64,000 nucleotides of DNA. Origin: Rhodanobacter denitrificans (GTDB lineage Bacteria; Pseudomonadota; Gammaproteobacteria; Xanthomonadales; Rhodanobacteraceae). The notes beneath the pieces are model-generated. The model was not told where the DNA came from. It searched no databases and worked only from the letters and a program-made list of their open reading frames with translations. The DNA is taken from positions 186,001 through 250,000 of the forward strand of contig JAFIHF010000032.1 of NCBI GenBank assembly GCA_017848855.1, given 5' to 3'. Numbering within the stretch: the stretch's first letter is position 1; each line of letters starts with the position of its first letter. Below are positions 8,112 to 38,660 of this stretch, piece by piece. The translations under genes were made by a program, and so were the position numbers.

Positions 8112-8735
8112 TTTCGCAAGGAACAAAGCGGTTTCGGACGCCTGCCGGCGCCCGAGCTACTTTCTCTTTGCGTGCTTAAAGAGAAAGTAGCCAAAGAGAA
8201 AGGGCACCCCGATGGCGCGCCCTCCGGGCATCCTGCCCTGCGGGTGCGCGGGCGGGTGGCGGGGTTTTTCGACGGCACCTCCGTGTGCCGGCGAAAAACT
8301 GGCCGGCATCCCTGCCGGCCATCCTGACGGACTTTCCTCCACCCGCCCGCCGCGCCATAGGGGCCCCGGGTGAAGCAGCGCGCTCCAGCGCGCAGAAGCA
8401 ACAGCCAGAGCAAGGCCAAGAGCAAAGCCAAGCAAAGCCGAAGCGCGCGCCGCACCAACTCCCTCTCCCCCAAGCTCCGCTTGGGGGAGAGGGTCGGGGT
8501 GAGGGGGGCTTTGGCTTCTGCGCGCAGGAGCGCGCCGCTTTTCCCCGGGGCCCCTCGGCGCCGCCGCGGGGTGTCGTTTTCTCTTGGCTACTTCTCTTTG
8601 ACTCCGGGCATCCATGCCCTCCGCCCTTCGGGCCGGCTTCGCCGTTCGCACGCGCTCCTGCGCGTGCGTGGACAAGCAAAAGAGAAGTAGCTCGGGCCGC
8701 GGCAGCGGCACGAAACCGCTTTGTTCCTTGCGAAA
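8112..8735. repeat. 624-bp nested inverted-repeat element, non-coding
   Basis: The ends (8112-8136 and 8711-8735) are perfect 25-bp inverted copies and the similarity continues inward, imperfectly, for about 65 bp. Further inward, 8360-8398 and 8513-8555 are again inverted copies (GGGGCCCCGGG, then a GCGCGCT...GCGCGCAGAAGC arm), and the centre is a CCCTCTCCC...GGGAGAGGG palindrome at 8459-8507. The whole could fold as one long cruciform. Open frames exist on both strands, but they mirror each other across the palindrome and lack ribosome sites, so I call none. It fills the 840-bp gap between the DUF3761 and VOC genes. Confidence 0.8.
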
Positions 8736-37181: not shown

Positions 37182-37939
37182 ACTGGCATCTGCATTTCCT
37201 CGGCACCGGCGCGGCACATGCGGCCGGTGAACTGGGTTCCTCGGCCGTGGTGCTGGAGCGCGACGGCGTGCCGATGCTGCTGGTCGATTGCGGCCCCGAC
37301 ACGCTGGACCGCTACCTCGACGCCTACGGCGCGCTGCCGCCCGCGCTCTACGTCACCCACACCCACATGGACCACGTGGCAGGGCTGGAAGGCCTGTTCT
37401 TCAAGCTGTGGTTCGACCCGCACCTGCGCGGCACCACGCGGCTGTTCGTGCATGCGGCGCTGCTGCCGTGGCTGCAGACACGGGTGGCCGACTACCCCGG
37501 CACGCTGGCCGAGGGCGGGGTGAATTTCTGGGAGGCGTTCCGGCTGGTGCCGTGCACGCGCGGCTTCTGGCTCGACGGCCTGTGGTTCGACGTGTTCGCC
37601 ACCCGCCACCATCGCCCCGACACCTCGTTCGGCCTCGCGTTGCGCGGCAGCTTCGTCTACACCGGCGACACCCGGCCGATCCCCGAGGCGCTGGCCCGGC
37701 ATGCCGCCGGCGGCGAACGGGTGGCCCACGACTGCAGCCTGGTCGGCAACCCCTCGCACACCGGCATCGACGACATCGAGCGCGAATACGACGCGGCGCT
37801 GCGCGCGCGCCTCGTGCTCTACCACTACGGCAGTGCCGCCGACGGTGCGGCACTGGCGGCACGCGGTTATCGAGTCGCCACGGCTGGCGAGCGCGTGGCG
37901 CTGGCCGCGCCGCTGCCGCCGCATGCGGATGCCGGTTGA
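37178..37939 (+). CDS. MBL-fold metallo-hydrolase
   Basis: 253 residues. The metal-binding HxHxDH motif is THTHMDHVAG (about 66-75); later ligands lie in YTGDTRPI and near SHTGI. The FLGTGAAHAAG start resembles RNase Z-like and phosphodiesterase-like MBL proteins. Substrate unknown. Coupled to kdkA by the ATGA overlap. Confidence 0.87.
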   Translation: MNWHLHFLGTGAAHAAGELGSSAVVLERDGVPMLLVDCGPDTLDRYLDAYGALPPALYVTHTHMDHVAGLEGLFFKLWFDPHLRGTTRLFVHAALLPWLQTRVADYPGTLAEGGVNFWEAFRLVPCTRGFWLDGLWFDVFATRHHRPDTSFGLALRGSFVYTGDTRPIPEALARHAAGGERVAHDCSLVGNPSHTGIDDIEREYDAALRARLVLYHYGSAADGAALAARGYRVATAGERVALAAPLPPHADAG

Positions 37940-38011
37940 GCTTGTCAGTAACCCTGCCGGCCGCTATCCTTCCGCCTCTTCACTCGCTGAAGTCTTGCGA
38001 GTGGAAGGTGC

Positions 38012-38086
38012 GGAGAGGTGTCCGAGTGGTTGAATCAGGATGCCCTGGAGTTGTGTATACGGCTTATCCCCGTATCGCGGGTTCGA
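38012..38086 (+). pseudogene. Truncated tRNA-Ser-like sequence (5' part)
   Basis: GGAGAGGTGTCCGAGTGGTTGAA and the variable-arm segment are the same as in the intact tRNA-Ser 198 bp downstream. The anticodon stem is degraded (GATGC/TTGTG does not pair well), and the sequence leaves the tRNA at the T-loop (GCGGGTTCGA), where the structured element begins. It cannot fold as a functional tRNA. Confidence 0.75.
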
Positions 38087-38167
38087 CAAATTCGTAGGAA
38101 CGAATTTGGACAGCCGCAGGCTGGCCCCGAACGAAAGTGAGGGGTGAGGCTCAGGATGAGCCGAACC
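38087..38167 (+). repeat. Structured T-loop element, copy 1
   Basis: About 80 bp joined to the truncated tRNA-Ser at GGTTCGA. Four potential hairpins: CAAATTCG/CGAATTTG, CAGCC-gca-GGCTG, CCCC...GGGG and GGCTCA-gga-TGAGCC, closed by GGTTCG/CGAACC. After it the tRNA-like ATCCCGCC resumes. Copy 2 lies at 38389-38469 with different stem sequences but the same folds. Confidence 0.7.
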
Positions 38168-38209
38168 ATCCCGCCCGGCGTGGATGGATGCGACAAAGGT
38201 TTTGCGTGC

Positions 38210-38302
38210 GGAGAGGTGTCCGAGTGGTTGAAGGAGCACGCCTGGAAAGTGTGTATACGGCTTATCCCCGTATCGCGGGTTCGAATCCCGCCCTCTCCGC
38301 CA
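38210..38302 (+). tRNA. tRNA-Ser (anticodon GGA)
   Basis: A 93-nt type II tRNA with acceptor GGAGAGG/CCTCTCC, encoded GCCA end, anticodon stem CACGC/GTGTG around CTGGAAA (anticodon GGA), long variable arm TATACGGC..CCGTAT and T-arm GCGGG-TTCGAAT-CCCGC. Intact, unlike the fragments on both sides. Confidence 0.95.
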
Positions 38303-38388
38303 GTTATTGAACAACGCGACGGAATGGAATCTGGCGCGACAGTTGGAGATCACGGAAGAGAGGGCGGGTGAGAACCCGCGCGGTTCGA

Positions 38389-38469
38389 CAAATTCGTCTG
38401 GAGCGAATTTGGACAGCCGCAGGCTGGCCCTTCGCGCAGCGAAGGGTGAGGCCCGGGACGGGCCGAACC
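38389..38469 (+). repeat. Structured T-loop element, copy 2, with tRNA-Ser 3' fragment
   Basis: Same hairpin series as copy 1: CAAATTCG/CGAATTTG, CAGCC/GGCTG, CCCTTCG..CGAAGGG and GGCCCGGGACGGGCC, closed by GGTTCG/CGAACC. It is followed by the last 18 bases of a tRNA-Ser gene (38470-38487, ending CTCTCCGCCA), but no 5' tRNA part precedes it; instead AGAGGGCGGG (38359-38368) forms an outer stem with CCCGCCCTCT. Confidence 0.7.
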
Positions 38470-38546
38470 ATCCCGCCCTCTCCGCCAGTTGTTGAAATAC
38501 GCGACAGCCTCGGTTGGCGCGACGGGCTCAAGAAGCCCAGTGTTTA

Positions 38547-38660
38547 TGGTGGCCCCGTCGGTCCCCCCGCGACGATAGTCCGCAAACCCCGCCAGGTCCG
38601 GAAGGAAGCAACGGTAGTGGATGATTCGGGTGCCGGGGTGTGGCTGGCGGGGCCGCCGCC
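38547..38660 (+). ncRNA. ffs: 4.5S / signal recognition particle RNA
   Basis: Contains the conserved SRP loop GCCAGGTCCGGAAGGAAGCA (38591-38610) and the far stem GGGTGCCGGGGTGTGGCTGG; the ends GGTGGCCCC (38548) and GGGGCCGCC (38657) pair. The RNA binds Ffh to target membrane proteins. Ends are estimated from pairing. The position before dnaX is conserved in gammaproteobacteria. Confidence 0.93.

Follow-up and report, generated by a model that had tools for sequence, protein, structure and literature searches.

The locus and the question it raises

What are the two short elements that stand on either side of a tRNA-Ser gene in this genome? The window, i.e. the whole stretch of 64,000 nucleotides that was analysed, comes from a 3.49-Mb draft of Rhodanobacter denitrificans in 73 contigs (the source genome). 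A reading of its sequence alone had described two copies of an ~80-bp element flanking an intact tRNA-Ser, the first joined to a tRNA-Ser 5' fragment at GGTTCGA and the second followed by a tRNA-Ser 3' end. All of this was borne out. Two 81-nt units lie at 38086-38166 and 38388-38468 with tRNA-Ser(GGA) at 38210-38302 between them; 38008-38086 aligns to 38206-38284 of the intact tRNA-Ser copy; and the tail of copy 2 repeats the tRNA-Ser 3' end at 18 of 19 positions, then runs on with 21 exactly matching nucleotides from ATCCC. Read 5' to 3', the order is a promoter-like site, a decayed tRNA-Ser(GGA) 5' part, unit 1, a truncated T-stem strand, the intact tRNA-Ser(GGA), a spacer, a 5' arm, unit 2, a copied tRNA 3' end and the SRP RNA.

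37942-37970, plus strand: TTGTCA and TATCCT, 17 nt apart, forming a promoter-like site ahead of the broken tRNA, from a consensus scan
38012-38085, plus strand: broken, decayed 5' part of a tRNA-Ser(GGA), ending with GGTTCG of the T-loop, by alignment
38086-38166, plus strand: unit copy 1, four hairpins by fold and by covariance model R1 (H1 38087-38108, loop AGGA; H2 38111-38123; H3 38124-38145; H4 38148-38162, loop GGA)
38167-38176, plus strand: CATCCCGCCC, directly behind copy 1, a truncated 3' strand of the tRNA T-stem, from the sequence read
38210-38302, plus strand: tRNA-Ser(GGA), the sole intact one between the copies, by tRNA call and Rfam
38285-38340, plus strand: tRNA 3' end and next spacer, duplicated at 38470-38523, by local alignment
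38358-38381, plus strand: 5' arm, with GAGAGGGCGGG complementary to the tRNA 3' end and then TGAGAACCCGCGC, by fold
38388-38468, plus strand: unit copy 2, four hairpins by fold and by R1 (H1 38389-38411, loop CTGGA; H2 38414-38426; H3 38427-38447; H4 38450-38464, loop GGA)
38469-38487, plus strand: copied tRNA-Ser 3' end CATCCCGCCCTCTCCGCCA, 18/19 identical
38556-38652: SRP RNA, by Rfam match

The consensus scan returned this one promoter-like site against 0.2 expected, and the site probably drives the whole cluster. At gathering scores, Rfam matches tRNA and SRP RNA in the window and nothing else. Copy 1 precedes the intact tRNA and is without a copied tRNA 3' end. The possibility that copy 1 is a tRNA intron was considered and rejected, since the acceptor 3' strand is lost and splicing would yield no tRNA.

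A fold maintained by compensatory change

Folding of both copies gave the same four hairpins inside GGTTC/GAACC, and the paired-base differences between them in hairpins 3 and 4 are as first described. Copy 1 (38080-38166) folds at -39.1 kcal/mol (z -6.0) and copy 2 (38382-38468) at -45.5 kcal/mol (z -4.3), and when the arm is folded together with copy 2 (38357-38488, z -5.4), positions 38358-38368 pair with the tRNA 3' end of that copy; in each of the three cases 0 of 200 shuffles were as good. By themselves two copies are thin evidence for covariation. We therefore rely on an alignment of 30 copies, A1, picked from 66 and including both window copies, in which 98.6% of 801 cells are paired. 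Changes on both sides were found in 64 cells (14.3 in shuffles) and 11 pairs (6.6 in shuffles), and the covariation score, 0.246 against 0.100 shuffled, was reached by 0 of 500 shuffles, while further pair types showed no excess (21 vs 20.1). Sliding the partner columns by 1-3 positions lowers pairing to 22-49%. The covariation among the 30 aligned copies is strong, and it upholds the earlier claim that the fold, and not the sequence, is kept.

R1 is the covariance model built from A1. It scores 89.4 bits on copy 1 (over 38080-38172) and 94.6 bits on copy 2 (over 38382-38474), both of which belong to its training set. Outside that set, it located one further unit in the window.

8595-8675, minus strand: divergent third unit, intergenic and without a tRNA, R1 35.7 bits

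This unit (E 3.5e-9 for the window) has four hairpins with GGA in the loops of H1 (AGGA) and H4 (TGGA) and a fold z of -3.2. It is enclosed by the inverted repeats CTACTTCTCTTT and AAAGAGAAGTAG, so that its site, too, would be in a hairpin loop. A locus in another family (L130) resembles it.

Kinship to the tRNA-linked repeats of E. coli

The units are real and structured, and they form one branch of an obscure but established family, the tRNA-linked repeats (TLRs). TLRs were first seen in 1978, and no function was known for them before the 2021 work on RrA, RrB and RrF, according to the introduction of that paper (PMC8144298). There, E. coli is given 22 TLRs at ten loci, ending in 18-19 bp copied from the 3' end of whichever tRNA or rRNA precedes them. 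RrA, RrB and RrF are TLRs that follow 5S rRNA and interact with CsrA; RrB binds CsrA in vitro in a GGA-dependent manner, its deletion and overexpression phenotypes are modest and mutually puzzling, the repeat RNA is expressed and processed, and the repeat is proposed to guide RNase E cleavage of RrB (all PMC8144298).

R1 scores 44.7 bits on E. coli RrB, where it spans the whole RNA (positions 1-100; E 2.7e-13 for a search space of 3,002 bases) and aligns the GGAs of the H1 and H4 loops, and 22.8 bits on E. coli RttR. The window units adjoin tRNA-Ser(GGA) on the same strand, and the copied 3' end of 18-19 bp is present in copy 2 (18/19) and absent from copy 1. Because R1 finds both RrB and RttR and copy 2 carries the copied 3' end, we count the window units as TLRs; on these sequence grounds they belong to the group, yet they are not filed as Rfam RtT (RF00391). 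The whole RtT model gives copy 2 with its arm 38.3 bits against a cut-off of 45, over a match that spans 38348-38487 and includes the 5' arm, and its best score in the source genome, on the copy after tRNA-Tyr, is 41, also under the 45-bit gathering score.

With RrA, RrB and RrF the window units share the order of the four hairpins and the copied 3' end of the upstream RNA. They differ in adjoining tRNA-Ser, in their diverged sequence, in a host of another order and in the position of one copy, ahead of the intact tRNA. Binding to CsrA is reported for RrB only. RttR, of the E. coli tyrT-tyrV locus and the RtT family, has the 5' arm, the GGTTCG^A...AATCC boundaries, the four hairpins and a copied tRNA 3' end in common with them, but the window copies fall under the gathering score and the loops of RttR lack GGA. 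The Rfam model sX4 (RF02223) takes in a tRNA-Ser and the GGGGGGUGAGA that comes next, resembling the start of the 5' arm; its match at 38203-38373 is sub-threshold (28.7 against a gathering score of 70) and the hairpin core is not covered. No Rfam Csr or Rsm family matches at 37900-38560. The CsrB, RsmY and RsmZ decoys and the Xanthomonas RsmU also bear GGA in several hairpin loops, but the units here have two conserved GGA hairpins, an attachment to tRNA and fixed, insertion-like ends. Among the weak RtT hits in the source genome (14.6-20.3 bits), the two that were read, L011 and L016, were rejected as kin; both are another dispersed repeat, GGGACTCGGGACTC..., which also encloses several small hairpins.

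The sequence-only reading would have given way to an already catalogued REP or RNA family, and this proved half right: the units have TLR kin in E. coli, but they are not the RAYT-type REP of this genome and miss the RtT gathering score. Among the papers listed by our searches of open-licence PMC literature, none dealt with TLRs outside Enterobacteriales or with TLR insertion sites, and as far as the searches show, the breadth of TLRs, their exact insertion site and the GGA constraint are new.

Distribution and neighbouring tRNAs

A covariance model and a search of the order had been suggested for the element, and with R1, the model from 30 copies, matches at E <= 1e-3 were found in 229 of 398 sampled genomes of the order, covering 70 of 98 genera. 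At E <= 1e-4, R1 matched 157 of 369 sampled genomes of the class. A second model, R2, built with the H1 and H4 loops masked because R1 had been trained on GGA sequences, matched 121 of the 369 at that threshold. In a sample of the phylum, again at E <= 1e-4, there were matches in 66 of 299 genomes, 46 of the 66 outside the class. The numbers of matches are lower bounds, since only 10-13 candidates per genome were scored. The E-values run optimistic (9 weak window matches at E 0.005 to 1, against about 1 expected), and a few of the weakest genome matches may therefore be false. From 197 matches we tabulated 165 distinct keys after dropping duplicates and rows with N or short flanks. Two other loci, L237 and L238, were set aside, since their stretches were cut at contig ends and the unit did not show at the assumed offset.

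Units stand beside five tRNAs of the source genome, Ser(GGA), Ser(TGA), Ser(GCT), Gln(CTG) and Tyr(GTA), with three of them head to tail at tRNA-Ser(GCT); tRNA-Ser(CGA) is without one. When the 42 tRNAs of this genome were inspected for a repeat of the 3' end (at most 3 mismatches of 19), three gave a positive result: Tyr(GTA), Ser(GGA) and one tRNA-Gly, which is a tandem gene. Among the 30 highest-scoring loci found in the order, 26 have a called tRNA-Ser, and at the other four a displaced tRNA end could be read ahead of the unit. In other families (40 genomes chosen for having matches), 24 of 30 loci have a called tRNA. Of the remaining six, one has what we take by reading to be a tmRNA 3' end and another, also by reading, an interrupted tRNA-Arg. 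At class level a same-strand tRNA was found at -700 to +900 nt in 20 of 29 loci. Within 450 nt of the 165 tabulated sites, a same-strand tRNA lies upstream in 107 and downstream in 28, and there is no called tRNA in 35. All these samples were drawn from the best scores of a model whose training copies came mostly from tRNA-Ser, so the share of Ser in them is biased.

Some neighbourhoods have features of their own. At L069, L070, L075 and L079 the unit comes after the displaced 3' end of a tRNA-Ser, and the surrounding 1.5 kb contain no tRNA gene, which is how a tRNA invaded by a genomic island would look. At L008 and L131 in the source genome and L050 in genome G007, the hairpin of the terminator behind the tRNA is prolonged into a long palindrome; within it lies the tRNA 3' end in an antisense copy, suggestive of copying by fold-back.

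GGA loops and the proposed role

The loops of H1 and H4 are where sequence is retained. We grouped 162 eligible rows of the 165 into 39 clusters of <75% identity and, for each hairpin, counted those clusters with exactly one hairpin at the given place. GGA occurs in the H1 loop in 31 of 33 clusters (permuted mean 7.9, maximum 15) and in the H4 loop in 28 of 32 (permuted mean 6.1, maximum 13; 2,000 permutations each), as opposed to 2 of 37 for H2 and 1 of 20 for H3. The stems vary, with 24 different arms in 33 for H1 and 29 in 32 for H4. Could the GGAs be an artefact of R1 training? This was rejected, as the loop-masked R2 recovers them: GGA was found in 29 of 30 (H1) and 28 of 30 (H4) best matches per locus in the class search, and in 48 and 46 of all 52 distinct matches, R2 having been trained on 16 of the sequences of R1 and 24 of the 30 loci being already among the class matches of R1. 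Exceptions exist. RttR of E. coli has the fold of the unit and loops without GGA, L034 and L207 are without both GGAs, and L036 is without H1.

Conserved GGA in hairpin loops is the mark of RNAs that sequester CsrA/RsmA, and the H1 and H4 loops resemble CsrA/RsmA-binding sites. Of the 32 H4 clusters, 17 read CANGGANG and 9 read CAGGANG, which fits both the consensus RUACARGGAUGU from SELEX and the hexaloop ANGGAN given for CsrA (PMC7652899). GGA is not the whole story, since the Xanthomonas RsmA-binding RNA RsmU was still bound after all four of its GGAs had been changed (PMC7694677).

Our preferred reading, which we regard as probable though well short of assured, is that the window copies are TLRs of the RrA/B/F and RttR kind that act as RsmA/CsrA decoys coupled to tRNA transcription. 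Each is a discrete unit of ~75-95 nt lying between G and AA of a tRNA loop, beside a partial duplication that leaves one tRNA intact. It is probably transcribed with the tRNA, its RNA would form the four hairpins, and RsmA/CsrA would find GGA sites in the loops of H1 and H4. Having two GGA hairpins per unit, such RNAs may titrate the protein as small decoys tied to tRNA transcription. The sequences themselves show the fold, the covariation, the GGA constraint, the fixed boundaries at several distinct sites and the homology to RrB; what we infer is that the units are transcribed with the tRNA, bind and titrate RsmA, are processed and have moved.

The source genome has a single csrA match, which stands directly 5' of tRNA-Ser(GCT) and the three units there. 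At L008 (contig G000:C20, minus strand) and L239, the row consists of csrA, tRNA-Ser(GCT), a palindrome resembling a terminator and the three units head to tail. Two intergenic loci without a tRNA, L048 (G011) and L049 (G007), have a unit amid further GGA-bearing hairpins, the run at L048 ending in CCACAGGATGTGG and then T's, and may be an Rsm-type small RNA gene.

Fixed ends, insertion sites and alternative explanations

A test of whether further copies sit at tRNA T-loops had been suggested, and 123 of the 165 sites are T-loop sites (GGTTCG^AATCC). There are also 8 in anticodon loops, 5 in D-loops, 2 elsewhere in a tRNA and 27 at other sites. The assignments with 3 mismatches of 14 (two anticodon, two D-loop) may be chance; exact 14-nt joins were found in the anticodon loop of Ser(TGA) (L112, L091) and Ser(CGA) (L125) and in the D-loop of Ser(TGA) (L187, L202). 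At the T-loop sites the unit starts with A in 123 of 123 cases and continues with C in 117, it ends in C or T in all 123, and it is preceded by G in 119 and followed by A and A in 100 and 115, respectively; the cut could lie one base over, the edge A being common to unit and target. The window site is GGTTCG^(A/C)ATCC in the T-loop of tRNA-Ser(GGA). Non-tRNA sites include E. coli 5S rRNA and, at L047, the start of a metallo-beta-lactamase-fold gene, an uninterrupted copy of which is also present at L047. Another, at L192, is a reading frame whose sole domain match, of ParB type, is sub-threshold.

Wherever a site was read in detail, one of its flanks proved to be duplicated, and an intact copy remains. 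The duplicated flank is upstream for window copy 1, L185, L021, L023, L025, L026 and the tRNA-Arg of L107, and downstream for window copy 2. A duplicated flank with an intact copy is what a small insertion element would leave, and a non-autonomous mobile element would be expected to keep its ends at sites that are unrelated in sequence, as the unit does in T-, D- and anticodon loops and elsewhere. The unit thus looks like a tiny mobile element, although no mobilising enzyme or linked transposase was found. As far as the sequence goes, both halves of the original proposal, a tRNA-targeting mobile element or a structured RNA, are right, given fixed boundaries and covarying hairpins.

The units could, then, be a purely selfish miniature mobile DNA element in which RsmA binding is incidental, the hairpins and GGA loops being marks for a transposase or recombinase on single-stranded or extruded DNA. 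Besides the G^AA sites in three kinds of loop, the head-to-tail units after tRNA-Ser(GCT), the copy at the duplicated metallo-beta-lactamase-fold gene start and the third unit of the window, which is set in the loop of a palindromic repeat, would suit such an element. We nevertheless think it unlikely, although worth keeping in view, as the GGA loops fit the CsrA consensus, the relative RrB binds CsrA, and the E. coli RNA is processed and expressed (PMC8144298).

In G778 (L219-L231) and G973 (L232-L235), near-identical units lie within longer dispersed intergenic repeats, and the G778 copies were accordingly rejected as independent jumps. A reading frame resembling a recombinase or ParB contains or adjoins several units at L180 (G541) and L192 (G530), and one 75-nt unit at L192 is read through in frame.

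A role in the processing, stability or termination of tRNA transcripts, with the hairpins and the copied end guiding 3' maturation or protecting the transcript, seems improbable to us. It would account for the copied tRNA 3' ends and for the pairing of the 5' arm of copy 2 with the 3' end, and RNase E guidance is proposed for RrB (PMC8144298), but the arm does not seem to be generally matched to the end of its own tRNA. The duplex between own tail and 5' arm was stronger than the mean of the tails of other tRNAs in 45 of 81 cases and than shuffled tails in 63 of 81, and such a role leaves the GGA loops and the D- and anticodon-loop sites unexplained. Movement of the unit as a REP element, with a RAYT (Y1) transposase as the enzyme, can be all but dismissed: the source genome has two Y1_Tnp matches, one with an internal stop, but its stop-free RAYT-like gene (L099) is flanked by repeats of the GTAGGTCGGGCTTCAGCCCGAC type, unlike the unit, and in this genome the unit does not resemble the repeats beside the RAYT gene.

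Implications

The window units tie TLRs to a much wider set of sampled genomes, and the idea of CsrA binding passes an evolutionary test, in that GGA is kept while the stems change. They also suggest how TLRs arose, namely from a small unit with one set kind of insertion site in tRNA loops. A bolder generalisation, which we offer tentatively and would rate at somewhat less than even, is that miniature mobile RNA elements across the class insert at G^AA in the loops of tRNA, and of 5S rRNA and tmRNA, planting CsrA/RsmA-binding hairpins in those transcripts of the cell that are most under growth control; the E. coli TLRs would be one branch of this transposable regulator module. Should the decoy reading hold, many bacteria may have their CsrA/RsmA activity tied to the transcription of tRNA and rRNA.
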